Part shown: in pieces, positions 18,195 to 51,652 of the stretch
How the letters are laid out: every line of letters starts with the position of its first letter
How positions within the stretch are numbered: position 1 is the first letter of the stretch
Source: Acidovorax carolinensis
GTDB lineage: Bacteria; Pseudomonadota; Gammaproteobacteria; Burkholderiales; Burkholderiaceae_C
NCBI RefSeq assembly: GCF_002157145.1
Contig: NZ_CP021361.1
Location: forward strand, 2,535,001 to 2,599,000
DNA length: 64,000 nt
Direction of reading: 5' to 3'
Translations under genes and position numbers: made by a program
The notes under the pieces: generated by a model
The model's database searches: none
Seen by the model: only the letters and a program-made list of their open reading frames with translations
What the model was told of the DNA's origin: nothing

Positions 18195-18271
18195 TGGCGG
18201 AGTGGACGGGACTCGAACCCGCGACCCCCGGCGTGACAGGCCGGTATTCTAACCAACTGAACTACCACTCC
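18195..18271 (-). tRNA. tRNA-Asp (GTC), copy 2 in transcript order
   Basis: Begins GGAGTGGTAGTTCAGTTGG, anticodon loop CTGTCAC (GTC), encoded CCA. Identical in sequence to the copy at 18576. Confidence 0.96.
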
Positions 18272-18323
18272 TGGCAGGCAGCTTTTGCTTGCATCTTTTC
18301 AATACAAGCCAAGCGCTACAACT

Positions 18324-18399
18324 TGGCGACCCCACGGGGATTCGAACCCCGGTACTCACCGTGAAAGGGTGATGTCCTAGGCCTCTAGACGATGGGGTC
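18324..18399 (-). tRNA. tRNA-Glu (TTC), copy 2 in transcript order
   Basis: Begins GACCCCATCGTCTAGAGG, anticodon loop CTTTCAC (TTC), encoded CCA. Identical to the copy at 18703. Confidence 0.96.
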
Positions 18400-18435
18400 A
18401 AAACCTTGGAACTAACCGTATCTATCAACAAACTT

Positions 18436-18511
<76 letters not shown>

Positions 18512-18534
18512 AAATTTCTCTGGTTCTCACCAAA

Positions 18535-18567
18535 GAAAAACCCTTGCACATCAAAGACCTGCAAGGG
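18535..18567 (-). terminator. Terminator between the two tRNA units
   Basis: On the minus strand, CCCTTGCA..TGCAAGGG stem then a T-run, right after the first tRNA-Asp (18576..18652). The distal unit therefore needs read-through or its own promoter. Confidence 0.65.
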
Positions 18568-18575
18568 CTTTTGAC

Positions 18576-18652
18576 TGGCGGAGTGGACGGGACTCGAACC
18601 CGCGACCCCCGGCGTGACAGGCCGGTATTCTAACCAACTGAACTACCACTCC
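18576..18652 (-). tRNA. tRNA-Asp (GTC), copy 1 in transcript order
   Basis: Same 77-base gene as 18195..18271, anticodon GTC, encoded CCA. Confidence 0.96.
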
Positions 18653-18702
18653 TGGCAGGCAGCTTTTGCTTGCATTCTTCACACAAGCCAAGCGCTACAA
18701 CT

Positions 18703-18778
18703 TGGCGACCCCACGGGGATTCGAACCCCGGTACTCACCGTGAAAGGGTGATGTCCTAGGCCTCTAGACGATGGGGTC
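18703..18778 (-). tRNA. tRNA-Glu (TTC), copy 1 in transcript order
   Basis: Same 76-base gene as 18324..18399, anticodon TTC, encoded CCA. Confidence 0.96.
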
Positions 18779-18814
18779 AAAACCTTGGAACTAACCGTAT
18801 CTATCAACAAACTT

Positions 18815-18890
<76 letters not shown>

Positions 18891-39213: not shown

Positions 39214-40221
39214 ATGGCAAAAAACATCAGCCTGACCCGCTACCTGGTCGAACAGCAACGCGTGGACGGTCTCATCCCCGGCCAACTGCGCCTGCTGCTT
39301 GAAGTGGTCGCGCGGGCCTGCAAGAGCATCAGCCACGCCGTCAACAAAGGCGCCCTCGGTGGCGTGCTCGGCAGTGCCGGCAGTGAGAACGTGCAGGGCG
39401 AAGTCCAGAAAAAGCTCGACATCATCGCCAACGAGGTGCTGATCGAGGCCAACGAATGGGGCGGCCACCTGGCCGGCATGGCCAGCGAGGAAATGGACGG
39501 CATCTATGTGGTGCCCAACCGCTACCCCAAAGGCGAATACCTGCTGCTGTTCGATCCCCTCGATGGTTCCAGCAACATTGACGTGAACGTGAGCATCGGC
39601 ACCATCTTCAGCGTGCTCAAGATGCCCGAAGACGACCGCGGCGTGGATGAAGGCGACTTCCTGCAGCCTGGCAACCAGCAGGTGGCGGCAGGTTATTGCG
39701 TTTATGGACCACAGACCACGCTGGTGCTCACGGTGGGCGACGGCGTGGCCATGTTCACGCTTGACCGCGAACAGGGCTCGTTCGTGCTGACGCAAGAAAA
39801 TGTGCGCATTCCCGAGGACACCAAAGAATTCGCCATCAACATGAGCAACATGCGCCACTGGGACGAGCCCGTGAAGCGCTACATTGATGAGTGCCTGCAG
39901 GGCAAGGAAGGCCCGCGCGGCAAGGACTTCAACATGCGCTGGATCGCCAGCATGGTGGCCGACGTGCACCGCATCATGACCCGCGGCGGCATCTTCATGT
40001 ACCCCTGGGACAAGCGCGAACCCCACAAGCCCGGCAAGCTGCGCCTGATGTACGAGGCCAACCCCATGGGCTGGCTCATCGAACAAGCTGGCGGCGCCGC
40101 CACCAACGGCAAGCAACGCATCCTGGACATCCAACCCACCCAGTTGCATGAACGCGTCAGCGTGATCCTGGGCTCAAAAAATGAGGTGGACCGCGTGACA
40201 AGCTATCATTCCAAGCTATAA
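39214..40221 (+). CDS. fbp: Fructose-1,6-bisphosphatase class I
   Basis: Gluconeogenic phosphatase, Mg-dependent, cytoplasmic. 335 residues; [20 protein letters not shown] is the metal and phosphate site signature, ASEEMDGIY supplies another metal ligand, and [16 protein letters not shown] is the conserved active-site helix. ATG 39214 ([16 protein letters not shown]) is preferred over an ATG seven codons upstream. The stop codon overlaps the promoter of tRNA-Thr. Confidence 0.96.
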
Positions 40222-40222
40222 T
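40195..40222 (+). promoter_or_regulatory. Promoter of tRNA-Thr
   Basis: GTGACA, 16-base spacer, TATAAT, inside the last codons of fbp; the tRNA begins 12 bases downstream. Confidence 0.65.
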
Positions 40223-40233
40223 TGCAGGCTTAC

Positions 40234-40309
40234 GCCGGTGTAGCTCAGTCGGTAGAGCAGCTCATTCGTAATGAGAAGGTCGGGTGTTCGATTCATCTCT
40301 CCGGCACCA
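40234..40309 (+). tRNA. tRNA-Thr (CGT), integration site of the adjacent element
   Basis: GCCGGTGTAGCTCAGTCGG start, anticodon loop TTCGTAA (CGT), encoded CCA. One T-T mismatch in the acceptor stem. Its 3' half is repeated exactly at 50900-50948. Confidence 0.96.
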
Positions 40310-40312
40310 AAT
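40264..40312. repeat. attL: 49-bp direct repeat in the tRNA-Thr 3' end
   Basis: Starts ATTCGTAATGAGAAGGTCGG and ends CCGGCACCAAAT; identical over 49 bp to 50900-50948. It keeps the tRNA gene intact after insertion. Confidence 0.93.
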
Positions 40313-40336
40313 TTTGATAATGAAATCAAGCACTTA

Positions 40337-40363
40337 AGCCATCCCACAAGGATGGCTTTTTTG
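40337..40363 (+). terminator. Terminator just inside the element's left end
   Basis: AGCCATCC..GGATGGCT stem and six T; now ends the tRNA-Thr transcript. Confidence 0.8.
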
Positions 40364-40402
40364 TTTCTGGCGTCTGCCAAACACGAAACGAACACAGCAC
40401 GG

Positions 40403-40452
40403 CGCCTTCGTAATGAAAAGGTCGCCAGTTCGAATCCTCTTTCCGGCACCAC
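40403..40452 (+). repeat. Degenerate second copy of the tRNA-Thr 3' half
   Basis: TTCGTAATGAAAAGGTCGCC then AGTTCGAATCCTCTTTCCGG and CACCA resemble the last ~45 bases of tRNA-Thr with several differences. No acceptor 5' half is present, so this is a relic att site and not a gene. Confidence 0.7.
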
Positions 40453-40460
40453 TTGATGTA

Positions 40461-40496
40461 AAAAAGGGCAGCCCACATGGGCTGCCCTTTTTGCTT
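40461..40496. terminator. Perfect bidirectional terminator
   Basis: AAAAAGGGCAGCCCA..TGGGCTGCCCTTTTT, 15-bp stem with a two-base loop. Ends the 40506..40994 gene on the minus strand. Confidence 0.85.
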
Positions 40497-40505
40497 CTAG
40501 TCTAG

Positions 40506-40994
40506 TCAGACCTGCGCCGCCTCCAGAGGCTCAAGGAAGCGCTCGAACTCCACCGTGCGCGCCTTGGAGTACTCCTCCAGTGCGCGTGCGACCAACTCCT
40601 CCGCCTTGCCCCTCGGGTCGTCGCGCAGTTCCTCGCTTCCCCGCCTTGCCGCGTACTCGGTCATGGCGAGGACGAGCCAGTTGCCGCCGAACAGTTCGCG
40701 GAGGTCGAGGTATGCGTCGAGCGACATGAACGGGCAACCGTCGCCGAGCACGAAGTCGGTCGGGTTCGGGTTGGCCTCGTCGTTGTAGGACTCGAACAGG
40801 CGGTCGTTGCCCACCAGGGCGTCGCAGGCTTCGAGCAGGAGGTCTGCGTCGAAGTGATCGCGGCCGCCGCTTACGTGCATGGCCTGCCTGGCTGCGAGCG
40901 CACGGACGCCGGAGGCGTGCTCCAGCTCCAGGCCGAGCACCTCGATCTGGTGCTGGTGAGCGTTGATGGCGTTGGTATCGATCATAGTATTCAT
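40506..40994 (-). CDS. Hypothetical protein of the tRNA-Thr element
   Basis: 162 residues, acidic, no signal peptide or membrane segment. GGAG lies eight bases before ATG 40994 (MNTMIDTNAINAHQ). Rich in Leu/Glu/Asp with a conserved-looking PFMSLDAYLDLRELFGGNW stretch near residue 90. I recognise no family. It stands alone at the left end of the element, followed by a strong terminator, so it is probably expressed from its own promoter in 40995-41100. Confidence 0.7.
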   Translation of the reverse strand: MNTMIDTNAINAHQHQIEVLGLELEHASGVRALAARQAMHVSGGRDHFDADLLLEACDALVGNDRLFESYNDEANPNPTDFVLGDGCPFMSLDAYLDLRELFGGNWLVLAMTEYAARRGSEELRDDPRGKAEELVARALEEYSKARTVEFERFLEPLEAAQV

Positions 40995-41317
40995 GTGAAT
41001 TTCTCCAAAGTTGTCAATCAAGGGTTTGTTGCCGAGGCGTCCCTCAGCACATCGCGATGGAGACAAGTTTGGAGGCTCTGTCTACGAAAAAATATCATCA
41101 TTTGCGTCGGCGTGTGGTCGGCACGCATCGGCCCGAATTCGTTTGTTGACGGCGTGCGCGGGCGCGTGTTCGCGGGACGCCTGATCCTCAATCAGATGGT
41201 CAGATCAGCTAAGCCTCTGATGTGAAAGGTCGTCGCCATAGGCGGCCTTCTTCTTGATACAACCAGGCAACAACCGCGGACTTTCTCTACAACAAAACGC
41301 TCTGCTCGTGTAGGCTC
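40995..41317. other. Gap between divergent element genes
   Basis: About 320 bases, more A/T-rich than the flanks. I see no gene; it must carry the promoters for 40506..40994 (minus) and the probable endonuclease gene (plus). Confidence 0.5.
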
Positions 41318-42373
41318 ATGGATTTGAGTCTCAATGAGCAAGATATGGCATTTATCGACGATATTGCAGCGGCCCACGGGGTTCCCGCAGACAACCTGCT
41401 AGTGCAGTACTTGCTACGAAAAACCCGGGCAGCCGACCGAGGCAGCAAAGCAAGACGGTCCCTTGGGAATCTGTATGCACTTTATGTGCTAGCAGAAGAT
41501 TACTTGGCTGGAAATACCTCCCGCTTTACTGATCTGCTAGCCCGAATGCGCGCGCTGCCTTTTGGGGCAAAGCTGCAAAATCACCCACTCGACAACCGTT
41601 TGAACGATGAATTTTCACGCCAGCTCGGCGTCAATGGAGAGCTGCTTCCTGTCCATGCGGCAGTAGTCGCGGGTCAAAAGGCGAGGACTCTTTCACCGGC
41701 TCTTCTCAGGCACGGAGGCGCAGACCCAACGATGGTTGCGCGCTTTGTGGTCGCAGCAATACAAGCTTATGTTGAGCAGATTACTGCCAACCAGTCGAGT
41801 GCATTGGAAGAAATTCAAGCGATAGAGACCATCGAAGACTTGGGAGAGTTTTTCGACGCGGCATTCGCTGCGAATTCAGATGCTCGCCTATTTGAAATTG
41901 CCTCGTATGTCTTGCTGGCTGAGCACTATCGTGGGAAGGTTGTTTATTTCGGAGACTCTCCAGCAACAGCGAGGGCAACTCCGCTTGAGCTCTTTCGAGC
42001 TGGGAGAACAAATGCAAATGACGGAGGTATTGATTTTGTGCTGCGCCCCCTTGGGAGGATTTTCCAAGTCACTGAGACGCTAGATTTCCGCAAGTATTTT
42101 CTAGATTTTGAGAAGGTTAATCGTTACCCCATATCCTTTGTAATTAAAGTCTATGGAGCTGGCGACGAAGTGAAACAGCGAATCCAGCAGGATGCAGTAC
42201 GATCAGGTCTCTACAGTCCCGCGATGATTTCCGTCTACATGTCGTTGTTTGAAGAGGTGATAACGCTGGATGATCTTCAAGGCGCGGCATCAAGAATTCC
42301 TGATTCCGCGCTTGATCGAGTTAAGGCTCAGCTCTCCTTACAATTCAAGCTGGAGTATGGGCTGCTCGACTAA
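41318..42373 (+). CDS. Probable type II restriction endonuclease, family not recognised
   Basis: 351 residues, soluble. Assignment comes mainly from context: it is convergent with, and overlaps by 36 bases, a YhdJ-like adenine methyltransferase. In the C-terminal third, GRTNANDGGIDFVL and then GRIFQVTETLDFRKYF resemble a PD-(D/E)xK core (Asp in IDFVL, then a beta strand), but the usual E-x-K appears as Q-V-T, so the active site would be atypical. The N-terminal ~200 residues are helical. ATG 41318 has only a weak ribosome binding site. Alternatives: a methylase-associated protein of unknown role. Confidence 0.5.
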   Translation: MDLSLNEQDMAFIDDIAAAHGVPADNLLVQYLLRKTRAADRGSKARRSLGNLYALYVLAEDYLAGNTSRFTDLLARMRALPFGAKLQNHPLDNRLNDEFSRQLGVNGELLPVHAAVVAGQKARTLSPALLRHGGADPTMVARFVVAAIQAYVEQITANQSSALEEIQAIETIEDLGEFFDAAFAANSDARLFEIASYVLLAEHYRGKVVYFGDSPATARATPLELFRAGRTNANDGGIDFVLRPLGRIFQVTETLDFRKYFLDFEKVNRYPISFVIKVYGAGDEVKQRIQQDAVRSGLYSPAMISVYMSLFEEVITLDDLQGAASRIPDSALDRVKAQLSLQFKLEYGLLD

Positions 42374-43282
42374 ATCCTTAGTTCGCTGCTTCTTCGATAG
42401 GTTCTGCGTCTTGCGCACTTTTTGCTTGGCAAGCGCTTCCTCTGAGTAGTCGGACGGAATACCCACGCGGCGCAGACCTATTTTTATGTAGGTCTCGTTG
42501 CGCTCAATGGATATTGATCGCCGGCCAAGGCGTTTTGCCACGGCGCTGGTCGAAAAAGAGCCACCGAAAGGATCAAGCACAATATCGCCTGGATTAGACG
42601 AGGCTTTAATTACTCGCTCAAGCAAGGCCTCTGGTTTCTGAGATGGATGATTCTCGTATTCATCCATCTTGAATCGAACCCGGGCGAAATCCCACACGTT
42701 CCCCGGCACTTTTGTCGTGTTGTAGGGCTGCGGTGGATTTTTTCGATAGTCAATTAAACCTCGCTTTGCACCCGTCTTGGCCTCGACGAGGATGTCCTCC
42801 GTATTAAATGTGTAGGACTTTGGGTTTTTGACCATGTGGAGTATTGGCTCATAGAGGGAGCCGTAGAATTTTCGAGCCTGCATCCCTGAGCTGTCATAGG
42901 ACCAGACAATCCTAGAAAGGATTGCGAACTTAGTCCTACAGTACAAGTCGATGTGAGGCATGTTCTGCGTGGAATTCATCAGATAAAAGGTCCCCTCCGG
43001 CTTTAGAACGCGGTGGCACTCATCCAACCACTTCCAGCACCAATCGAAGTATTCTGACTCTTCAACTTGATCGTGAATTCCGTCGAAATCTTTTCCTATG
43101 TTATAAGGCGGGTCCGCAAAAACTAGATCGACTGACCCCGTCTCGATGGTTTTAAGAACCTCAAGTGCCTCCCCATGATGTATGGTGTGCCCTTCGGCAG
43201 TGTATGATTTCGTCACGAGTAAATGGCTCCAATTTTCTCGGGAAGCAAAGCAAGTTGCGCCTTGTTCTAACAAACTTCCCAC
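42338..43282 (-). CDS. Adenine-specific DNA methyltransferase, YhdJ-like
   Basis: 314-residue N6-adenine methyltransferase. Catalytic DPPY (FADPPYNIGKDFDG) lies near residue 57, before the SAM-binding motif DPFGGS near residue 252, the order of beta-class enzymes. Long near-identical stretches to E. coli YhdJ are visible (RIVWSYDSSGMQARK, LIDYRKNPPQPYN, KVPGNVWDF, DEYENHPSQKPEALL). YhdJ methylates ATGCAT, so this protein may protect the same site. A basic C-terminal extension of about 35 residues follows. Confidence 0.88.
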   Translation of the reverse strand: MGSLLEQGATCFASRENWSHLLVTKSYTAEGHTIHHGEALEVLKTIETGSVDLVFADPPYNIGKDFDGIHDQVEESEYFDWCWKWLDECHRVLKPEGTFYLMNSTQNMPHIDLYCRTKFAILSRIVWSYDSSGMQARKFYGSLYEPILHMVKNPKSYTFNTEDILVEAKTGAKRGLIDYRKNPPQPYNTTKVPGNVWDFARVRFKMDEYENHPSQKPEALLERVIKASSNPGDIVLDPFGGSFSTSAVAKRLGRRSISIERNETYIKIGLRRVGIPSDYSEEALAKQKVRKTQNLSKKQRTKDLVEQPILQLEL

Positions 43283-43328
43283 AATAACGTGATCTTACCG
43301 GCTGGAGCTAGCGAGGTACAGGAACTCG

Positions 43329-43802
43329 CTAGTCGACGGCGGATTGGTGCGAGTCACCGTCCACGCGCTGACGATCAGGCACCGCAGTGCCCTTCTTGCG
43401 CATGTCGTGGGCGTACCACCGGACCGACTTGGCGGATGCCTGCGCGCCCTCGATCTGCGCTTTGACCATCTCGGCAATGACGGCGTGCGGGTAGCCCGCG
43501 GGGTCCATCAGCAGCTCTCGGGCGAGTCGGCCGATGCCCTTGCCGCTGGGCTTCTTCTCGGTCTCTGTCGGGGCCTCGGTCGCTTCGGTGACGTCGGCCT
43601 GCGGCTGTGCGCGCGGCTCGGTCACCTCGGCGGCCTGCGACTGCCCGAACGACGCGACGTCGATGTTCTTGGCCTTGGCTATGGACTCGATTCGGTCGAG
43701 CAGCTTGCCTCGGGTCGCGAAGGTCTTCGGCCCAGCGGCCTTGTCGGCGATCTGGTTGTGCAGGACCAGCAGGTCCTTGGTGCTCATCTCTTGCAGGTTC
43801 AT
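43329..43802 (-). CDS. Hypothetical protein with C-terminal helical domain
   Basis: 157 residues. The N-terminal 45 residues look helical (MNLQEMSTKDLLVLHNQIAD), then comes a Glu/Thr/Ala-rich linker, and a C-terminal block GIGRLARELLMDPAGYPH..VRWYAHDMRKKG. That block recurs as a small conserved domain in phage and plasmid proteins, possibly DNA-binding; this is from memory of sequence style, not a search. Same strand as and 46 bases upstream of the methyltransferase gene. Confidence 0.65.
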   Translation of the reverse strand: MNLQEMSTKDLLVLHNQIADKAAGPKTFATRGKLLDRIESIAKAKNIDVASFGQSQAAEVTEPRAQPQADVTEATEAPTETEKKPSGKGIGRLARELLMDPAGYPHAVIAEMVKAQIEGAQASAKSVRWYAHDMRKKGTAVPDRQRVDGDSHQSAVD

Positions 43803-44017
43803 CTCACGCTCCAGTGGTTGGGTGTGAGTTCATTAAGTCGTGTTCAAGGGGATTCGGGAGCGGGGCCCCCTGAAGAAAATTGGCCCGCTGACTGTCCATC
43901 AGCGGGCCGTGATTCCTAAGCGCATGAAAAAGAAGGGGATGCCTTGTGGGCATCCCCTCCGAAGCACGGCCGGGGCAACCTCGGCCTCTGTTCCGACCCC
44001 GGCCGCTGGCACCAAAC

Positions 44018-44293
44018 TCAGTGCATGAACGCCAAGTGCAGGCGGTCGTAAGGGAGGGCGTCGGCGCGGCGCTTGGTCTCGCGGTCAACGTACAGGTCCA
44101 GCGGGCGCGAGTACGGCACCCCAGCCAGCGCCGCCGCGTCGTCGAAGGTCTCGCAGCCGAAGGGCACGCCCACGCTGGCGGCACGCTCGGCCAGGGCGTC
44201 GATGACCTCGCAGCCGCTGCGCAGGGCGCACGCGAGGCCCGTGAGCGCGAGGGCCACGGGGTGATGCGCGGGGTAGACGGCGTGCTTATTCAT
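44018..44293 (-). CDS. Small hypothetical protein
   Basis: 91 residues, no recognised domain. Its ATG (44293) overlaps the stop of the preceding gene by 8 bases, implying translational coupling and supporting it as real. Two hairpins without genes fill 43803-44017: GGCCCGCTGA..TCAGCGGGCC near 43880 and GGGGATGCC..GGCATCCCC near 43936. Confidence 0.6.
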   Translation of the reverse strand: MNKHAVYPAHHPVALALTGLACALRSGCEVIDALAERAASVGVPFGCETFDDAAALAGVPYSRPLDLYVDRETKRRADALPYDRLHLAFMH

Positions 44294-45002
44294 CGCCGCC
44301 CCCGATCAGGCCGCGGTCGATGGCCTGCTCGCGCAGGGCGAGCTGCACGGTGTTCAGCGGGTTCGACTTGCCCTGGTTCCAGGTGCGGATCGCGACGAGG
44401 ATGCCCTGCAGGCGCGCGTCGCCCAGCTTGATGTACTCCTGCACCTTCAGGTAGTCGTCCAGCTTCATCGCGGCGGCGAGCTCGGCGGGGCCGACCGGGC
44501 GGTCCTTCGACGGCATGCGGTCCAGCAGGCTCAGCAGCGCGGAAGCGAGCGGGATGTTCTGCGTGGCGACGGCGACCTGGGCCATGTGCCCGAGCTCGGC
44601 GGGGCCGGCGTAGGCGAGCTGGTGCAGGTACTCGGTGCGCTTGGGGTCGCCGAGGGCGGCGCGGGCCAGCACCTTGGCGGGGCTGGAGTAGAACTCGCGC
44701 TGCGAGACGAGCTGGGCGTGCGGCGCGCCCGCGTCCTTCAGCAGCTTGTCGAGCTCCTTGGCGGAGTTGTCCTTGATCTGGCGGACGGCGGCCACGGTCT
44801 CGCTCTGCGCGAAGCGGGCCTTGTCGGCGGCGTCGATGCCGGCGGACTTCCAGCGGTTGGCAATCTCTGCCTTGCGCGCGTCGATGTCGGACTGAAGGCG
44901 CTGAATGGCCTTGATGGCGCGGGTGTGGATGGCGTCCAGGTTGGACGCGAGCTCGCCGATCTGTTGCGGGCTGAGCAGCGGGGATACTTGATTCAGGTTC
45001 AT
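44286..45002 (-). CDS. Hypothetical helical protein of the tRNA-Thr element
   Basis: 238 residues, almost wholly helical by composition (MNLNQVSPLLSPQQIGELAS, AIKAIQRLQSDIDARKAEIA), with a likely coiled-coil at residues 25-85. No enzymatic motif. Such proteins in phage-derived modules are often scaffold-like or regulatory, but I cannot assign one. Preceded at about 105 bases by the shared upstream motif at 45108-45144. Confidence 0.65.
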   Translation of the reverse strand: MNLNQVSPLLSPQQIGELASNLDAIHTRAIKAIQRLQSDIDARKAEIANRWKSAGIDAADKARFAQSETVAAVRQIKDNSAKELDKLLKDAGAPHAQLVSQREFYSSPAKVLARAALGDPKRTEYLHQLAYAGPAELGHMAQVAVATQNIPLASALLSLLDRMPSKDRPVGPAELAAAMKLDDYLKVQEYIKLGDARLQGILVAIRTWNQGKSNPLNTVQLALREQAIDRGLIGGGDE

Positions 45003-45107
45003 GGCTCGTTGGCTCCTATGAGGTTGAGGGTCCTCCGGTCGCCTTCGAGCGCGTCCCCAGCCGCGGGGTGGTCATGCGCGCCAATGCGCTGACCGGATGC
45101 TTTCAAT

Positions 45108-45144
45108 GTGTCGTGGTGCGTTGGCCGAGAACGCCATCGTTCTT
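45108..45144 (-). promoter_or_regulatory. Shared upstream motif, copy 1
   Basis: GTGTCGTG, 15 bases, ACGCCATCGTTCTT. The same two blocks with the same spacing occur at 46437-46473; both precede minus-strand genes of the element. Confidence 0.55.
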
Positions 45145-45227
45145 CGGTCGTGTTCATCTGTTCTGCGCCGCCGTCACGGTGGCTTGTGCTTCAAGGGCTT
45201 GGCGTCTCGCCGCCCCCTGATCGAGAG

Positions 45228-45674
45228 TCAGGCGTCTTCGTTGGGGTCGGCGCCGACTGGCAGGCCGCCAGCGCCGCCGCAGTTCAGGCACAGGCGGGCG
45301 CGGCTCACGTCCTCGGAGAAGTGGAAGCGGCCGCAGCACATGCACCTGAGCCAGCCCACCGTGCGCACCACGCGGGGAGGCTGCACGTTGAGGTCGATGA
45401 CGTTGGCGCGTCGCGCGCCGCCGTCGAATGCCCAGCGCGTCGGCTCCACCAGCGGCTTCGCAACGTCGCAGTCCTCGGGCGTCCTGACCCTTCGCGGGCC
45501 GGGCGTCGCGCCGAGCCAGCGGAAGGTCGGGAAGTTTGGGCTGTGGGCGCGCTGCTGCACGGAGCTGACGCTCATGCCAAGTGCCTGGGCCGCCTGCCGG
45601 GCGCTGGGGTATCGCACCCCCGCGACCTCGATGGCGACGGCGTGCCCGCTAGGCGCCGCGGTTGACGCTGCCAT
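45228..45674 (-). CDS. Hypothetical HTH / zinc-ribbon protein
   Basis: 148 residues. The N-terminal half has a helix-turn-helix-like segment (YPSARQAAQALGMSVSSVQQ) of the kind found in phage and homing-endonuclease associated proteins. The C-terminal half has two CxxC-type pairs (RCMCCGRF and LCLNCGGAGG), a small zinc ribbon. Likely a DNA-binding regulator of the element. Its start overlaps the end of the 45649..45897 gene. Confidence 0.62.
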   Translation of the reverse strand: MAASTAAPSGHAVAIEVAGVRYPSARQAAQALGMSVSSVQQRAHSPNFPTFRWLGATPGPRRVRTPEDCDVAKPLVEPTRWAFDGGARRANVIDLNVQPPRVVRTVGWLRCMCCGRFHFSEDVSRARLCLNCGGAGGLPVGADPNEDA

Positions 45675-45897
45675 GCTGGCGGCCTGCCTCGTACTCGTTC
45701 GACATGGCCTGCCACGTGTCCGCGTCGATGCGTGGGATAGGGCCGATGCAGGTCATCTCGCAACTGCGGGCAAGGGCATCGCGCCCGCCCATCGCCACGA
45801 CCGTCTGCGGTGCCGTCTCGTCGAAGGCGTCGAGGTTGCGGTCGATCTGCTCGGCGCGCAGCAGAGCCTCCTCGACGGTCAGCATCTCACTCGTCAT
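45649..45897 (-). CDS. Small hypothetical protein
   Basis: 82 residues, acidic, no domain recognised (MTSEMLTVEEALLRAEQIDR). Real by position: its start overlaps the preceding gene by 11 bases and its end overlaps the next start by 26 bases, forming a tight three-gene unit with the TerS-like gene. Confidence 0.58.
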   Translation of the reverse strand: MTSEMLTVEEALLRAEQIDRNLDAFDETAPQTVVAMGGRDALARSCEMTCIGPIPRIDADTWQAMSNEYEAGRQHGSVNRGA

Positions 45898-46402
45898 CGT
45901 CTTGCTCCTTGTTCGCGTGGTACTTGGAGAGCAGCCCCGTCAGCGCCTTGCGCTCGTCGGCCGACATGCGCAGCAGCGCCTCGGCGTCGAGGCCTGTGGA
46001 GTCCACCTTGACGCGCAGGCGGTCCGCCATCTGGTCGCCGTAGCGCCACTTGAGAAGGACCTCCATCAGCCTGTCGCTGTACTTGCGCACCGTCAGCGGG
46101 CGCTCGTCGCCGGTCTCGGGGTCGGCCACGGTCGAGACGCGGCCCTGGTGGATAACAGGCTCATCGACGCCGACGGCAGCACGCCGATAGGCTTCTTCGA
46201 GCAGGCTGTCGAGCGCCACCTCGACGGCCGCCTCCCACTGCGTGCGGAACTCCAGGTCGTTGGCCTTGTGATAGAAGGCCGTCGAGCGCACGATCCCCGC
46301 AGCGGCTGCCGCAGCCTTGGGGCTCGCCGTGTCTTCGAGCACCGCAAGGAAGATCGCCTTCCTCTCCGGTGTGAAGGTGTTGGGGATAGATGGGCGGCTC
46401 AC
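45887..46402 (-). CDS. Terminase small subunit-like DNA-binding protein
   Basis: 171 residues. The N-terminal HTH (FTPERKAIFLAVLEDTASPK, AAAAAGIVRSTAFYHK) is followed by EAYRRAAVGVDEPVIHQGR and TVRKYSDRLMEVLLKWR, a pattern common to small terminase subunits that recognise pac or cos sites. In phage satellites, an own TerS redirects packaging of helper-phage heads to satellite DNA. No large terminase is present. The acidic C-terminus (NKEQDDDE) is unremarkable. Confidence 0.55.
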   Translation of the reverse strand: MSRPSIPNTFTPERKAIFLAVLEDTASPKAAAAAAGIVRSTAFYHKANDLEFRTQWEAAVEVALDSLLEEAYRRAAVGVDEPVIHQGRVSTVADPETGDERPLTVRKYSDRLMEVLLKWRYGDQMADRLRVKVDSTGLDAEALLRMSADERKALTGLLSKYHANKEQDDDE

Positions 46403-46436
46403 GTCTGTTCTCCGAAAAATGGCTTACGGAGTTATC

Positions 46437-46473
46437 GTGTCGTGCTTATGCGCGCAGGCACGCCATCGTTCTT
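46437..46473 (-). promoter_or_regulatory. Shared upstream motif, copy 2
   Basis: GTGTCGTG-N15-ACGCCATCGTTCTT, 35 bases before the start of the TerS-like gene. Confidence 0.55.
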
Positions 46474-46641
46474 TCAAGCACATCAACGGCTTGGAGGGCT
46501 TTGGCCCGCGAATCAATGATTGGTGGGTCGAACGGCCCGGATCGTTGACCTCGCGCGCGAAGGTCTCGGCGCAGCAGGTTGGGCACGTTCGACCACCGTG
46601 ATTCCCTCTTTGAAGGGGTTCGGTTTTTCGATCGTCAAGGC

Positions 46642-46853
46642 GATTGTCAAGGTCGTCGTCTATAGACTGACGACCATCCTGACAATCAAATCCTCCAGTG
46701 ACTTTCGCTTTGACAATCGGGTGGCCGAAAGTGGCCTAAGTGCTTGTCGCGCTTAGATTGTCAGCTCGACAATCGAACCTGACAATCGACGACAATCTGA
46801 TTGTCAGGGGGCGTGACAATCGAACACCGAAAATCGTGCCCCGTGACAATCGA
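46642..46853. repeat. Iteron-like array, probable replication origin
   Basis: Ten copies of GACAATC or its complement GATTGTC, most extended to TGACAATCGA. They occur at about 46642, 46681, 46712, 46756, 46768, 46781, 46790, 46799, 46815 and 46845, in both orientations. They lie immediately downstream of the primase-helicase gene's stop, A/T-rich against the surroundings. Confidence 0.75.
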
Positions 46854-46863
46854 AATTGCCTGC

Positions 46864-48936
46864 TCACCCCTCCGTCCTGACCAGGATTCCGAGCTTCGGG
46901 TTGCGCGGGTCTGCGGGTTCCTGCCACACCAGCCCGCCGTCTGCTGACTGCTTGGCGTTGTCACGGGTGCAGTGCTTGGGGATCGCTTCCTCAATCCTGC
47001 GGCGCGCCGTCTTGTCCGCCACCCCATCGCGCTCGCACACGGCTTCGGCCAACTCCTTCAACGGCACGCTGCCACCGCGCTCGCTCGCCATCTGGCGCGC
47101 CAGCTCCACGATCAGGTCCGTCCTGCCATCAAAGTCACCACCCGCATCGACCATCGCAGTCGGCTTGAGAACAAGGGAGTCGGCTGCCTTCTCCAAGTTG
47201 AAGCGCATAGGCCCTTCGCGCTCGGCGTCCTTCTGCTTGTGCACGGCGACCTTGATCGAGTGACCGTCGGTGGAGCGCTCCACCTCGACGGTCGTGTCCA
47301 TCGCGCCTAGCAGCGCCGTGCTGCCGCGCATGCCTTTGCTCACGTCCTTGCCCGAGTGGTGGACCACGACCACGGCGGCGCCAGTCGCGTCGCGCAGCTT
47401 CTTCATGCTGGCGATGTAGCGCCCCATGTCCTTCGCCGAGTTCTCGTCGGCGCCTGCGGCTGTCTGGTTCAGGGTGTCGATGACGATCAGGCGCAGCGGC
47501 CCGAGCTCATCGGTCACAGCTTGGACGAAGGCGCGCACACCGCCATCCTTCTCGGCTGCGAGGTTGAGTTCGTCGCGCATCAGGTGGAGTTGGAAAGCAC
47601 GGCCCTGTGCCCCGCGATTCACCTTCCAGGCGCGCATGCGCTTGCCGAGGCCCGGCGCGCCCTCCGCCGCGATGTACAGGACGCCGCCGCGCTCGACGGT
47701 GCGCCCGTGCCAGTCCATGCCGCTCGCAATGGCCATCGCCATGTCCACTGCAAGGAATGACTTGCACGATTCGGGCGGCCCGTAGATCGCTGCGATGCTG
47801 GCTTCGACCAGGACGCCTTGCACCAGCCACTTCGGCGGCGGCAGCCTCTCCACCTCGTCGATGCTCAGGAAGCGCCAGCGGCTGGATTCGGCTTCGACGG
47901 TGCCGTCGTCCTCCCACACGTCGAAGTCGTCCTCTGGGTCCGGCGATGCGATGTCGCCGCCGACCTCTTGCAGGTACATGCGCAGCGTGGCCGTCGTGAT
48001 CTTCTGGTCGCGGTTGACGTGCAGCGAGTCCCAGCGGCGGCCGACGATCCAGTCCTGGTCGGCGTACTCGGGATCGCCCATGCACCAGTCGATGAACTCC
48101 TGCCTCCCTTCGCCGTCGGTGGCGTAGTGGCAGGCCATCATCAGTTCCTTCCAGCGCTCGTGCTGCTTCTTGCCGAAGTCGCACGGGTCGAGCTGTTCCA
48201 GTGTTTTCGCCAGCAGCTCAGGCGTGAGTTCGCCAGCGTCCGATGATGCCGCGGCAACGCGCTCCGGCCTGCGAGCCATCTTCAGCACGTTCGACGGCAA
48301 GTCAGGCATGTCGGCCAGCGGCGGCGAGTCGGTGGCCCATTCGTAGCGACCGCCTGTTGGGTGGACGGAGCCGGCAGCGACCACCTGGCGGCCGAGCGAC
48401 TTGAACTCCAGCCCCGCATAGCCCTCGATGCTTTCCAGCAGCACCGCACCCGCAGGTTTCCTGAAGTAGTAGTGGTGCCCCGGTGTATTCAGGTTGCCGG
48501 TGAGAACGTGGGGCGCTGCTGACAGGTCGATGCCCGTGTCGGCCACCAGCTTGTCGAGGCTGTTCGTGCCGTCGGGGAAGTGGCGCGGGTCAACGTCCAG
48601 CACAACCACGTCGGCGGGCAGGCGGACACCCAGATTCAGACGTTCGCGCTGCGCCCGTTCGAGCGTTTCGGCGTGGTCGTACTGCCGGGTTGTCCAGCGG
48701 CCGTCGGCGGGGGCCTTGCCGAGTTCGCGCCCATCGCGGCTGATCGCATTCCAGCAGTGCAGCGGGATCAGTTCCAGGCGGGCGCCACGGTACGGCCGCA
48801 CGTCATCGAACGATGGTGTAGGCGCTTGGCGCATCCCGGCATCATTTGATCCGGTGAGCTTGCTCACCTCTCCAGGTTGTTGACCATTGGCGCCCACGGA
48901 CTCGTCCCCCGTGGGCGTTTTCTTTTGTTCGCTCAT
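46864..48936 (-). CDS. Replication protein: primase-polymerase plus RepA-like helicase
   Basis: 690 residues in three parts. Residues ~45-200 form a primase-polymerase (AEP-type) domain with DVD (114-116, VVLDVDPRHF) and the His motif GHHYYF; about 250-325 resemble a primase C-terminal helical region (ERWKELMMACHYATDGEGRQ); 365-560 are a RecA-like hexameric helicase with Walker A GPPESCKS (386-393), Walker B LIVIDTLNQ (Asp487) and VVVHHSGKD. The C-terminal part is a winged-helix-like region. It should prime and unwind replication from the adjacent iterons. Starts four bases after the AlpA-like stop. Confidence 0.88.
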   Translation of the reverse strand: MSEQKKTPTGDESVGANGQQPGEVSKLTGSNDAGMRQAPTPSFDDVRPYRGARLELIPLHCWNAISRDGRELGKAPADGRWTTRQYDHAETLERAQRERLNLGVRLPADVVVLDVDPRHFPDGTNSLDKLVADTGIDLSAAPHVLTGNLNTPGHHYYFRKPAGAVLLESIEGYAGLEFKSLGRQVVAAGSVHPTGGRYEWATDSPPLADMPDLPSNVLKMARRPERVAAASSDAGELTPELLAKTLEQLDPCDFGKKQHERWKELMMACHYATDGEGRQEFIDWCMGDPEYADQDWIVGRRWDSLHVNRDQKITTATLRMYLQEVGGDIASPDPEDDFDVWEDDGTVEAESSRWRFLSIDEVERLPPPKWLVQGVLVEASIAAIYGPPESCKSFLAVDMAMAIASGMDWHGRTVERGGVLYIAAEGAPGLGKRMRAWKVNRGAQGRAFQLHLMRDELNLAAEKDGGVRAFVQAVTDELGPLRLIVIDTLNQTAAGADENSAKDMGRYIASMKKLRDATGAAVVVVHHSGKDVSKGMRGSTALLGAMDTTVEVERSTDGHSIKVAVHKQKDAEREGPMRFNLEKAADSLVLKPTAMVDAGGDFDGRTDLIVELARQMASERGGSVPLKELAEAVCERDGVADKTARRRIEEAIPKHCTRDNAKQSADGGLVWQEPADPRNPKLGILVRTEG

Positions 48937-48939
48937 CGG

Positions 48940-49233
48940 TCAGCCCTCCACGTTCGCGCGATCGACACGGGCCTTGCGCGACTCGTAAGAGCGGGACAGC
49001 GGCTGGACCTCGACCATGTAGGCGCGCAGGTCGCCGACGCGATAGCGGATGACCTTTGGGCCGACGCGCTGGTAGGTCGGGCCGCGGCGCTGGCTGCGAT
49101 ACCAGTTCAGGGCGTTGGGGCTGAGGCGCAGGAAGGCGGCGGCCTCGTGGACGTTGAGCAGCGCCTCGTCGGGCAGCGCATGAAGTTCGCGCAGTTCGGC
49201 GAGCGTTACCGTCAAGCGGGTGGGGTTCGTCAT
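48940..49233 (-). CDS. AlpA/excisionase-like helix-turn-helix protein
   Basis: 97 residues. LLNVHEAAAFLRLSPNALNW then YRSQRRGPTYQRVGPKVIRY is the MerR-like winged-helix fold of AlpA regulators and excisionases (HTH_17). Such proteins control integrase expression and excision in P4-like elements and satellites. ATG 49233 chosen (MTNPTRLTVTL). Translationally close to the replication gene, so probably an early operon. Confidence 0.78.
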   Translation of the reverse strand: MTNPTRLTVTLAELRELHALPDEALLNVHEAAAFLRLSPNALNWYRSQRRGPTYQRVGPKVIRYRVGDLRAYMVEVQPLSRSYESRKARVDRANVEG

Positions 49234-49539
49234 CTCTTGGACTCCGTTCAGCGATCCCCGCAAGGCGATGTGCCGGTGCGGGGACTGCCTGCTGTGCGTC
49301 GCAGAGATGGACCCGTTAGCTCCCCTCAGTCAGCGGGGCGAGTCGCTCATGTATGGCCTGAGCAAGCCTCGGTCGGTGTCACCCGACGAAAATGAATATG
49401 CCACAAGGCGATGGTGCGAAATACCATTACTTCTTCGGCCGTCCAGGTGAGTCGGTGGCGAGCCGAACAGGTCCAGGCGGCTCGGTATCAGGCCGAACCG
49501 CACCGGGCGCGACACGGGCCGTCTGGTGAGACCGTGCGG
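49234..49539. other. Gap between the AlpA-like gene and the integrase gene
   Basis: About 305 bases with no gene; expected to hold the promoter of the early operon. Direct and inverted GAGCCGAAC/GTTCGGC-type segments near 49455-49500 could be regulator sites, but are not certain. Confidence 0.4.
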
Positions 49540-50727
49540 CTATTCCTTGGGCTGCGGCGGCCACTCTCCGGGCGTCCAGGTCAGACCGAGTGCGTCCAGC
49601 ACATTGGCCGACGCCTTCTCCTGCCACGTCCGCAGGTGGTGCAGGCTGGGGTTCAGGTAGCCCATCGTGACGTTGCCCGCAGCGTGGTTCAGCAGGAATT
49701 TCAACTCGGCGATGGGCACGCCCGATTCAAGAGCCAGCGTTGCGTAGGTATGGCGGAGGGCATGGCCGATCAAGTCGCCCAGCTCGTACTGCGCCACCTC
49801 GGCGACATGGCCCGACTTCGAGTCGGCAGGGAACAACCAAGGCGAGCGCCGATAGGCCAGCTTGTTCTGCTCGGACCTGTGGGCTACGAGGTCTTGCAGT
49901 GGGCCGGACAGAGGCAGGTCGAAGGCGCGGGCGGCCCCACCCTTGGGTTTCGGCACATGCAGGGCGTCGCCCGTCTGGTTCAGTTGCTCGGCCCTCGCCT
50001 CGCAGGCGGCGGTGCGGCGCATGCCGGTCAGGATCATGAAAAGATGGAGGTCGCGGCGCACGGGGCTGCCCAGCGCGACCACCGCCTTGCCCCACGCCTT
50101 CAGCTTCTCGGCGTTGGCATCCACCTTGCGGCGCTTGAGACCGTGGTAATCGACGTTGGCGGTTGGATTCGCGGGAAGGTCGGGGTGCTCGCGCAACCCG
50201 CGGTTGTAGACGGCGCGCAGGATGCGGAAAACGGTATCTGCTGTGGGCGCGCCATGCTTTGCGGTGATGCGGACGTGGCGCTCGCGCACGCCGGCACGGT
50301 CCGCGCCGAGTTCGGCCAGCGGTGTGTCGAGCCAGTCGGATAGGTACTGATCGCAGCAGTAGCGGTAGTCGTCCTTGGTGCGCTGAGCCAACGGCTTGGC
50401 GGTGAGGTGCAGGTCGAGTGCCTGCCTGAGCGTGATGCCCTGCGCCCGCGCCTTGCGGCGCTCCTCGTTCGGGTTTGTGCCGCTGCGCATGCCGACGAGG
50501 GTCTGCCTGGCGGCATCGCGGGCTTGCTTGGCGTCGAGCGCAGGATGGTCGCCCAGCTTCGCGCGAACCTGCTTTCCGTTGACCAGCGACTGGACGTAGT
50601 AGGCCCGCTTGGTCGCGGTCACGATGAGGTAGAAGCCCCTGAGTTCGGGGTCGGCGTAAAGCACGGGCTTGCCGCGCTCGGCGTATGGTGCCCTCTCGAC
50701 GAGGGCCTGCGTTATCTTGGCTTTCAT
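49540..50727 (-). CDS. Tyrosine site-specific integrase of the tRNA-Thr element
   Basis: 395 residues, P4-integrase type: N-terminal arm-binding DUF4102-like domain (ALVERAPYAERGKPVLYADP..GFYLIV), core-binding domain, and the catalytic domain. Visible catalytic residues: Arg in ILTGMRRTAACEA, His-x-x-Arg in GHALRHTYAT, and the nucleophile Tyr in HAAGNVTMGYLNP. Integrates the element at the tRNA-Thr 3' end; the gene starts 170 bases from attR, the normal arrangement. ATG 50727 chosen over an upstream extension. Confidence 0.94.
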   Translation of the reverse strand: MKAKITQALVERAPYAERGKPVLYADPELRGFYLIVTATKRAYYVQSLVNGKQVRAKLGDHPALDAKQARDAARQTLVGMRSGTNPNEERRKARAQGITLRQALDLHLTAKPLAQRTKDDYRYCCDQYLSDWLDTPLAELGADRAGVRERHVRITAKHGAPTADTVFRILRAVYNRGLREHPDLPANPTANVDYHGLKRRKVDANAEKLKAWGKAVVALGSPVRRDLHLFMILTGMRRTAACEARAEQLNQTGDALHVPKPKGGAARAFDLPLSGPLQDLVAHRSEQNKLAYRRSPWLFPADSKSGHVAEVAQYELGDLIGHALRHTYATLALESGVPIAELKFLLNHAAGNVTMGYLNPSLHHLRTWQEKASANVLDALGLTWTPGEWPPQPKE

Positions 50728-50757
50728 GCGTTGGCTCCGAGTGAAGCGGGCCACGGC

Positions 50758-50796
50758 GCGAACACGGTTTAGCACCACAAGGTGCCGTGTGTTCGC
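50758..50796. promoter_or_regulatory. Inverted repeat upstream of the integrase gene
   Basis: GCGAACACGG pairs with CCGTGTGTTCGC, with an inner GCACC/GGTGC pair. A candidate operator or hairpin controlling the integrase. Confidence 0.5.
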
Positions 50797-50899
50797 ACGA
50801 CGTTTTGCCCGCTGACAGAGCCATTAAGTCGCGGTTTTGCTTGCTTGTAAGCGCCCTATGCCATCTAATATCGAATCATGGTGTGGCCTATGCGCGCCG

Positions 50900-50948
50900 A
50901 TTCGTAATGAGAAGGTCGGGTGTTCGATTCATCTCTCCGGCACCAAAT
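50900..50948. repeat. attR: 49-bp direct repeat of the tRNA-Thr 3' end
   Basis: Exact copy of 40264-40312; marks the right edge of the element. Confidence 0.93.
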
Positions 50949-50950
50949 AG

Positions 50951-50986
50951 AAGCCCCTGATTCGCAAGAGTCAGGGGCTTTTTGCG
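50951..50986 (+). terminator. Original terminator of tRNA-Thr, displaced by the insertion
   Basis: AAGCCCCTGA..TCAGGGGCTT stem and T-run directly after attR. Confidence 0.85.
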
Positions 50987-51112
50987 TGTAATGGGACGAA
51001 AGGCATTCGGCTGCACCCGCACTGCCGAGTGTCACATCACCCAGACAGTTGCAGCGAACAATTCATACAGCAGACCTGCACGCCATCTGTGCAACGCTTG
51101 CCACTTCGCGCG

Positions 51113-51652
51113 TCATTCATCCTCTGCAGCGCCGATGCCCGGAAAGAGCACCTCGGTATAGCCAAACTGCGCAAAATCGCGCACCCGAATGGGATACAGC
51201 TTGCCAATCAGGTGGTCGCATTCGTGCTGCACGACGCGGGCATGAAATCCTTCCACCGTCCTGTCGATCGGGTCGCCATAGGGGTCAAACCCTGTATAGC
51301 GAATGCGCGACCAGCGTGGCACCTTGCCACGCAATCCCGGCACCGACAGACATCCCTCCCAGTCCTCATCCTCCTCTGCACCCACGGGGGTAATGACCGG
51401 ATTGAGAAGCACCGTCGGCGGCACCAGCGGCCGGTCGGGATAGCGGGGATTGGCGCCGGTGGAGCCAAAAATCACCACCTGCAGATCGACGCCAATCTGG
51501 GGGGCCGCCAGGCCTGCACCATTGACCGATCGCATGGTATCGAACATGTCGCGCACCAACAGGTGCAACGCATCGGTATCAAACCTCTGCACGGGCTGGG
51601 CTATACGCAGCAGACGCGGATCGCCCATCTTCAAGATAGTGTGGATGGTCAT
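51113..51652 (-). CDS. def: Peptide deformylase
   Basis: Removes the formyl group from the N-terminal Met of new proteins; metal enzyme, cytoplasmic. 179 residues with the three motifs [17 protein letters not shown] and QHECDHL (two His and the catalytic Glu; Cys of motif 2 is the third ligand). The [11 protein letters not shown] insertion is unremarkable. ATG 51652 ([15 protein letters not shown]) chosen. Possibly a second deformylase copy, since it is not next to fmt. Confidence 0.95.

Follow-up and report, generated by a model that had tools for sequence, protein, structure and literature searches.

A tRNA-Thr-integrated element of Acidovorax carolinensis as a probable phage satellite related to Mesyanzhinovviridae/Pamexvirus siphophages

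Genes and boundaries of the element

This study concerns an integrated element of Acidovorax carolinensis that lies in a 64,000-nucleotide stretch of the genome (GCF_002157145.1, contig NZ_CP021361.1, positions 2,535,001 to 2,599,000), which we call the window and whose numbering is used unless another contig is named. The element occupies an island of ~10.7 kb delimited by a 49-bp repeat of the 3′ end of a tRNA-Thr(CGT) gene (40234..40309, plus strand; ARAGORN, Rfam tRNA 61 bits), which is its integration target. A previous sequence-only reading took this island, at 40264..50948, for a betaproteobacterial phage satellite carrying a type II restriction-modification pair. Its two repeats, attL (40264..40312, plus) and attR (50900..50948, plus), are indeed exact (49 of 49 positions identical), and a query made from the tRNA and repeat recovered these two sites plus two partial tRNA-like matches from the 4.12-Mb, one-contig genome. 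An Rfam scan of 40000-51200 returned only the tRNA above its gathering score.

The proposed left boundary may need to be moved. The tRNA 3′ end occurs a third time, as an 80% copy (40406..40454, plus) that is located 142 bp inward of attL and aligns with the left end of relatives, as in the related contig L010, where positions 269-362 align to 40402-40496. The stretch 40264-40405 may therefore be a 142-bp leftover, probably the remnant of another integration at the same tRNA-Thr, and the element proper would then span 40406-50900.

Leftward from attR, the gene order is integrase, AlpA-like helix-turn-helix (HTH) protein, prim-pol/helicase, iterons, terminase small subunit (TerS), p82, p148, p238, p91, and p157, followed by a methyltransferase, a convergent endonuclease, and p162. 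The tyrosine integrase (49540..50733, minus; Pfam and PHROG scans) matches Phage_integrase and Arm-DNA-bind_3, both above the Pfam cut-off. Prim-Pol, PriCT_2, and AAA_25 domains (Pfam) define the prim-pol/helicase (46864..48936, minus). Next to it are eight copies of GATTGTCA or its complement (46642..46851), compared with a 95th percentile of two in 100 shuffles, and these iterons form a probable replication origin. TerS (45887..46402, minus) is recognized by its match to phrog_4044 (E 1.2e-26) and by its place in the tree described below. Families for head, tail, lysis, or conjugation proteins do not rise above chance level in the Pfam and PHROG matches listed for the element (chance-level names among ten other element proteins have E values of 0.39 and 0.69). 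All of these features, including the lack of structural, lysis, and conjugation genes, had been proposed from the letters alone, and the analysis agrees with them.

The AlpA-like protein (48940..49233, minus) is a more qualified case. Its HTH_17 score of 26.8 bits is just below the cut-off of 27.0, it matches PHROG 66 (“excisionase and transcriptional regulator”) at E 0.006, and no AlpA-named Pfam family is among its listed matches. Its position beside the primase and its conservation in relatives would fit an AlpA-type regulator. The genome as a whole has 11 Arm-DNA-bind_3 integrase matches, one of which belongs to this element, and contains many other integrated elements.

The cargo consists of a type II restriction endonuclease gene (41318..42373, plus; PADLOC REase_II E 6e-67, no PDB match) and an adenine-specific DNA methyltransferase gene (42338..43282, minus; PADLOC MTase_II E 5e-134; NCBIfam NF008572 at 492 bits, cut-off 292). 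The two genes are convergent and overlap by 36 bp, an adjacent arrangement that, together with the profile matches, identifies a predicted type II pair as the earlier reading had it. In 1-kb windows, the GC content of the restriction part is 0.49-0.53 versus 0.59-0.70 elsewhere in the element, as expected for recent cargo. Beyond the endonuclease gene is p162 (40506..40994, minus), an accessory protein that has no Pfam or PHROG family at E < 0.1 and that finds matches of 28-60% in 8 of the 36 related loci introduced below. Elsewhere in the window, a tRNA Asp-Glu-Ala cluster occurs twice in tandem (18195-18890).

Related elements and their conserved core

A scan with TerS followed by a scan with a p238 alignment yielded 36 related contigs, comprising 26 species genomes and 10 IMG/VR contigs (L017 and L018 were left out of the counts because they equal L048 and L050). 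The whole nine-gene core is present in 21 of them, whereas the other 15 are cut by a contig end, lack at least one gene, or look degraded. A tRNA-Thr is present in 25 of the 33 loci scanned. For 24 of 27 loci, an attR that outscores all of 200 shuffles is found 169-187 nt beyond the integrase gene, the misses being L022, L029, and L035. The integrase gene faces, and so opposes, the core in 19 of the 30 relatives with an integrase match. One locus (L042 3548-15430) has a tRNA-Asn rather than a tRNA-Thr near its end, and the integrase target may shift.

The gene order had been expected to recur in other Comamonadaceae, and it does, the closest named relative being in an Ottowia of that family. 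The distribution is considerably wider, with hosts in Zoogloeaceae, Rhodocyclaceae, Alcaligenaceae, Oxalobacteraceae, Lysobacteraceae, Rhodanobacteraceae, and a Methylococcaceae metagenome-assembled genome. Therefore, “betaproteobacterial” is too narrow a label, even though the satellite part of the earlier proposal is supported. In a sample of 299 genomes from the window's family, which includes its own, a full-length p238 occurs only in its own genome (one other has a weak partial match), and a close TerS likewise (two others reach 34-39% identity). The element thus appears to be rare and scattered. Among the open-access papers searched, no title or abstract describes this element family.

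Several comparisons bear on mobility. The block from p157 to the conserved element that precedes terS is 88-94% identical at the DNA level to L010, L011, L022 (Ottowia), L023, and L024 (Zoogloea), whereas the still-alignable AlpA-primase stretch of these relatives is 65-74% identical, which indicates that modules have been exchanged. In L023, the flanking chromosome is 74-82% identical to that of the window, versus 89% for the core. Finally, the loci of Azospira sp. I13 (L025 2530-13919) and Azonexus hydrophilus (L026 2534-13919) are 99.8% identical over 11,390 bp, and the two have no other match of at least 200 bp. This observation points to a recent transfer from one genus to another, unless the assemblies were mixed up.

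Cargo was surveyed as 94 open reading frames (ORFs) of at least 110 amino acids outside the core of 24 elements, mechanically called ORFs included. The Pfam and PHROG scans gave the best 25 of 87, 25 of 29, and 25 of 28 matching families, with Pfam being the 25 of 29. The Pfam matches listed include seven C5 methylases and two N6/N4 methylases. NaeI, SLATT_3, and SLATT_1 have two matches apiece, with the two SLATT families perhaps sharing their ORFs, and PRTase-CE, NADAR, AAA_15, AAA_21, TIR_2, ThsB_TIR, SEFIR, and RVT_1 have a single match; transposase-type domains and a ParA-like protein also occur. Methyltransferases dominate the PADLOC matches. The cargo of the relatives thus appears to be often defence-like, a grading that goes no further because most ORFs match no named family. 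Structural genes in relatives had been named beforehand as the finding that would speak against a satellite, and no structural family is among the families listed for these 94 ORFs.

The most distinctive core protein is p238 (44286..45002, minus), which marks the 36 related contigs but has no match in 50,697 phage records and no significant match in the PDB. Phage PaMx74 protein PaMx74_47, whose gene adjoins the phage p157 gene, was considered as its orthologue and rejected for want of a profile match. By comparison, p157 (43329..43802, minus), whose PHROGs have no assigned function, has matches in 55 of the 50,697 phage records at E <= 1, of which the top 19 have E <= 2e-5. On these matches, p157 is best described as phage-related and not satellite-specific. 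Both proteins had been put forward as candidate interference factors; p238 is a genuine satellite hallmark, whereas p157 has near-full-length relatives in the presumed helpers. The remaining core proteins conserved in relatives are p91 (44018..44293, minus), p82 (45649..45897, minus), and p148 (45228..45674, minus), an HTH protein with sub-cut-off matches of the HTH_50 and homing-endonuclease DNA-binding-like kinds.

Two conserved noncoding elements accompany this core. Element 1 (46409..46530, minus; 111 bits), ~120 nt long, directly precedes terS wherever that gene is intact and is absent from the phage loci compared, under a model that, like the box matrix below, was derived from the satellites themselves. 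Element 2 (45003..45227, minus), before p238, is related to it, and both contain a box of the form AACGATGGC-N19-CGACAC (46437-46470 and 45108-45141). In the window, the copy ahead of terS begins 68 nt from the gene and the copy ahead of p238 139 nt from it. The two window copies score 39.3 bits for one and 48.0 bits for the other, and both copies exceed 17.8 bits in 19 of 25 elements (L047 and L050 have neither). In the candidate helper phages, the box was sought and not found, the best of 16 phage loci reaching 17.7 bits, near the shuffle maximum of 17.3. A weaker antisense copy inside the primase start (48809..48842, plus; 21.5 bits) may be explained by protein conservation. Where the copies lie and how they are spaced is suggestive of a promoter or operator, though the box could also be a packaging site. 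Two other assignments were rejected: a structured RNA for element 1 (two predicted pairs, no covariation, no conserved fold) and a sigma-70 promoter for the box (no consensus match at either window copy).

A p238 homologue (27% identity; profile E 5e-17) also led to three contigs of a second element type (L229, L230, and L231). This type has an integrase (41% identical to that of the window), a primase, a resolvase, a terminase large subunit (TerL), the p238 homologue adjoining TerL, and a tRNA-Thr(CGT), with ~11-12 kb between integrase and tRNA. In L230 it stands in tandem with the first type. Profiles for L066/L229 identify DUF5906, Resolvase, Terminase_3, an Eco57I methylase, and a BsuBI_PstI endonuclease, and none of the seven proteins of that contig that were scanned is structural (no capsid gene). 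A protein of 144-147 amino acids in the TerS position has no profile match, so that a TerS in this type is only a guess. A p157 counterpart was rejected, the search having given only a 33-column match with 7.7% probability. Because p238 is kept alongside TerL, a TerL-replacing role is disfavored, which favours a p238 that may act on the helper's head or on regulation; a role in the use of proheads is a guess.

The elements are also narrowly distributed in size. Eighteen complete ones (17 loci and the window) average 11.28 kb, with a standard deviation of 0.43 and a range of 10.46-11.90 kb. L026 was left out as a 99.8% copy of L025, as were L012, L016, L022, L042, L045, L049, and L050, along with loci that are end-cut or unmeasured (L011, L015, L029, L033, L035, L037-L039, L041, L044, and L048). 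Across these elements, which are related, the longer the core block, the shorter the remainder (r -0.76; permutation P 0.0007). A packaging limit would be the natural reading of this narrow size, and the nearness of ~11.3 kb to a fifth of a 56-kb headful is no more than suggestive.

Candidate helper phages and competing explanations

Three proteins of the element, the primase through its N-terminus, point to the same phages. TerS has matches in 65 of the 50,697 phage records, many of them GenBank/RefSeq doubles. The primase matches 1,487 records, of which the 25 best rows belong to the Mesyanzhinovviridae/Pamexvirus group (48-56% identity over less than half of the protein), and TerS and p157 find largely the same phages as each other. 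The sequence-only reading had made its case depend on TerS and primase matching phage or satellite families, and both match phage families. The matched phages are Mesyanzhinovviridae, Pamexvirus, Steinhofvirus, and unclassified kin that infect Pseudomonas, Xanthomonas, Stenotrophomonas, Achromobacter, Janthinobacterium, and Variovorax, with a few Rhodobacter/Roseobacter records.

The similarity extends to gene order and a short motif. Six of eight annotated phage records inspected have the order primase, 584-752-nt gap, TerS, the exceptions being JWX and RcRudolph; PaMx74, split by its record ends, is compatible with this order and was left uncounted. In 49 primase-TerS gaps, TGGCCGA occurs 79 times where 5.2 copies are expected and 100 shuffles give at most 12. 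The motif is present in 20 of 20 phages or viral contigs (8 named records and 12 from IMG/VR, some of them near-copies) and in 25 of 29 satellites. Because the gap rows are related, this sharing reflects common descent or shared function rather than independent events.

In a quick tree, 31 satellite TerS rows form one clade against 46 rows from phages and viral contigs (SH-aLRT 100), so that one old capture would suffice. Between satellites and 17 phages or viral contigs of the group (L047 excluded), TerS identity is 56% in the centre, 23% in the HTH, and 20% in the C-terminus, whereas within the phage group the HTH and centre are 75% and 80% identical. This pattern fits a TerS that may retain its oligomer or TerL-facing core yet read other DNA. 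A PDB search with TerS gave a best match that is not significant (E 0.5-0.8) but aligns collinearly with 3hef/4dyc, a small terminase entered as “Gene 1 protein” and belonging to phage Sf6. A primase tree places several satellite groups near phages. The iterons are of two types, GATTGTCA (window, L025, L030, L031, L035, L037, and L039) and AGACTTC (L024, L034, and L046), and all of these loci have the window-type primase C-terminus except L039, which could not be placed. A strict match of iteron type to primase type was rejected, since one C-terminus cluster includes both types and L047 with neither.

The helper does not appear to be a resident prophage. Of 24 host genomes searched among the 26 (L027 and L035 were left out), 20 contain a single phrog_4044 TerS, that of the satellite, and the other four contain none; no second such TerS was counted. 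In the window's own genome, a search limited to phrog_2 found no TerL. A second phrog_4044 match there, at C1:2366927-2367289, is weak and contains a stop.

From this evidence, we consider it likely that the element is a phage satellite whose helper is a siphophage of the Mesyanzhinovviridae/Pamexvirus group, with TerS directing its DNA into helper capsids, and these siphophages are probable relatives and helpers of the element family. The reading draws on integration at tRNA-Thr, a replicon of prim-pol/helicase and iterons, and a TerS with no recognized TerL or capsid gene, to which p238, the narrow length, exchangeable and often defence-like cargo, and the apparently recent intergeneric spread of one relative are added. 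Infection by such a siphophage would be the trigger. The AlpA-like protein and the box shared by terS and p238 would switch the element on, the integrase would excise it via a core in the tRNA anticodon loop, and the primase would copy it from its iterons. TerS, with its helper-like centre and different DNA-binding domain, would then steer the helper's TerL onto satellite DNA, and p238 may aid the use of the helper's proheads. The restriction pair might shield the host from other phages, possibly from the helper.

A broader version seems to us tentative and rather doubtful: a widespread lineage living on infecting, perhaps virulent, Mesyanzhinovviridae-like siphophages, with a promoter-like box regulon, p238 as a prohead-hijacking factor in two satellite types (one with TerS alone, one with its own TerL), and an ~11.3-kb unit set by packaging.

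Several findings weigh against the helper-phage reading or parts of it. Between distant phage-phage TerS pairs whose centre has diverged to a similar degree, the HTH is likewise only 29% identical. The domain pattern by itself therefore does not show redirection and is not special to satellites. The primase tree separates satellites and phages uncleanly (two label changes), and the interrupted phrog_4044 match in the window's own genome reaches E 2e-4. The size compensation rests on four elements, with P rising to 0.034 without L043 and L047 and to 0.23 after L032 and L036 are also dropped. The role given to p238 is a guess. Satellites occur in Rhodocyclales, an order for which the records list no phage of the group, and none were found in Pseudomonas although the group includes Pseudomonas phages. 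A virulent helper is insecure, because DLP4, a member of the group, is a temperate phage; in one study, a Mesyanzhinovviridae phage is reportedly called lytic.

The best-surviving rival, which we judge unlikely, is a satellite whose helper lies outside this group, its primase, TerS, and p157 being relics of an old common source. In its favor are the length of the branch that separates the TerS of satellites from that of phages (1.72 + 0.67 changes per column in the quick tree), the HTH divergence, and the satellite hosts beyond the listed phage hosts. However, three separate genes and a cis motif indicate the same phages, and host families overlap: satellites are found in Lysobacteraceae, Alcaligenaceae, Oxalobacteraceae, and Comamonadaceae, to which we assign the phage hosts Xanthomonas, Stenotrophomonas, Achromobacter, Janthinobacterium, and Variovorax. 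Less probable still is an autonomous integrative island that replicates on excision and is not packaged, with TerS as a captured DNA-binding protein put to new use. Its prim-pol and iterons do resemble a plasmid-like replicon, but TerS, p238, and element 1 are retained while primase and cargo change, the size is narrow, and in the second type, which uses the same tRNA, a p238 homologue is retained together with TerL. A decayed prophage stripped of structural genes by chance is barely credible: although some relatives are incomplete or rearranged (L029, L038, L041, and L045, which lack a primase match or intact terS yet retain p238), the same nine-gene core recurs in 21 of 36 relatives across beta- and gammaproteobacteria, TerS forms one clade, and a near-identical copy exists in two genera.

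Comparison with known satellite systems

If the helper-phage reading is right, it adds to the known satellites a family whose candidate helper group can be named, and satellite-helper biology becomes open to testing beyond its usual enterobacterial, staphylococcal, and Vibrio models. Defence-like cargo (restriction, SLATT, TIR, and reverse transcriptase) would then be tied to a mobile carrier, one that may travel with infecting phages, and this would matter for phage therapy based on the Mesyanzhinovviridae/Pamexvirus group. Furthermore, p238 and the box offer concrete handles on capsid hijacking and satellite switching, and the two iteron types within one primase C-terminus cluster are a natural set for studying origin recognition.

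The element family and the Mesyanzhinovviridae/Pamexvirus phages (PaMx74, DoCa5, DLP4, and VBv52) have in common the prim-pol/gap/TerS order, p157, and TGGCCGA. They differ in that annotated records of these phages include TerL and structural genes, and the phage collection has no p238 match. P4-like satellites carry the capsid-control genes Psu, Delta, and Sid, whereas no family of these names is among the Pfam and PHROG matches listed for the window element. Those matches also include no capsid gene, unlike capsid-forming phage-inducible chromosomal islands (PICIs), described as having their own capsid genes and relying on phage packaging (PMC11389934).

Phage-inducible chromosomal minimalist islands (PICMIs) are small AlpA-primase satellites with defence cargo and no capsid-remodelling gene recognized, and perhaps depend on an infecting rather than a resident phage (PMC10803314). 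The present family is likewise small, with AlpA-like and primase genes, defence-like cargo, and no recognized capsid-remodelling gene. PICMIs are described as inserted next to fis in Vibrionaceae, with no terS found (PMC10803314), whereas our elements lie at tRNA-Thr and have TerS.

Gram-negative PICIs are a further close parallel. Fillol-Salom et al. 2018 (PMC6092414) describe an integrase, an AlpA-type regulator, a primase/rep with an iteron origin directly 3′ of rep, sometimes terS, accessory genes, and no structural genes, and give 15 kb for a typical PICI of Gram-positive cocci. The present family has the same plan of integrase, candidate AlpA-type regulator, primase, and iteron origin, with pri/rep directly followed by the iterons, terS, and no structural or lysis genes recognized in the window or, among the families listed, in the relatives. 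It differs in its size of ~11.3 kb and in its core of p238, p82, p148, p91, and p157, a comparison made by gene plan and description rather than by protein comparison. Transcription, expected to be unidirectional in Gram-negative PICIs, is nearly so in the window, with the endonuclease opposed, but not across the family, given the opposed integrase genes noted above. Partly for this reason, we do not grant it PICI membership, and we describe it, on its gene plan, as an element that works like a PICI-type satellite.

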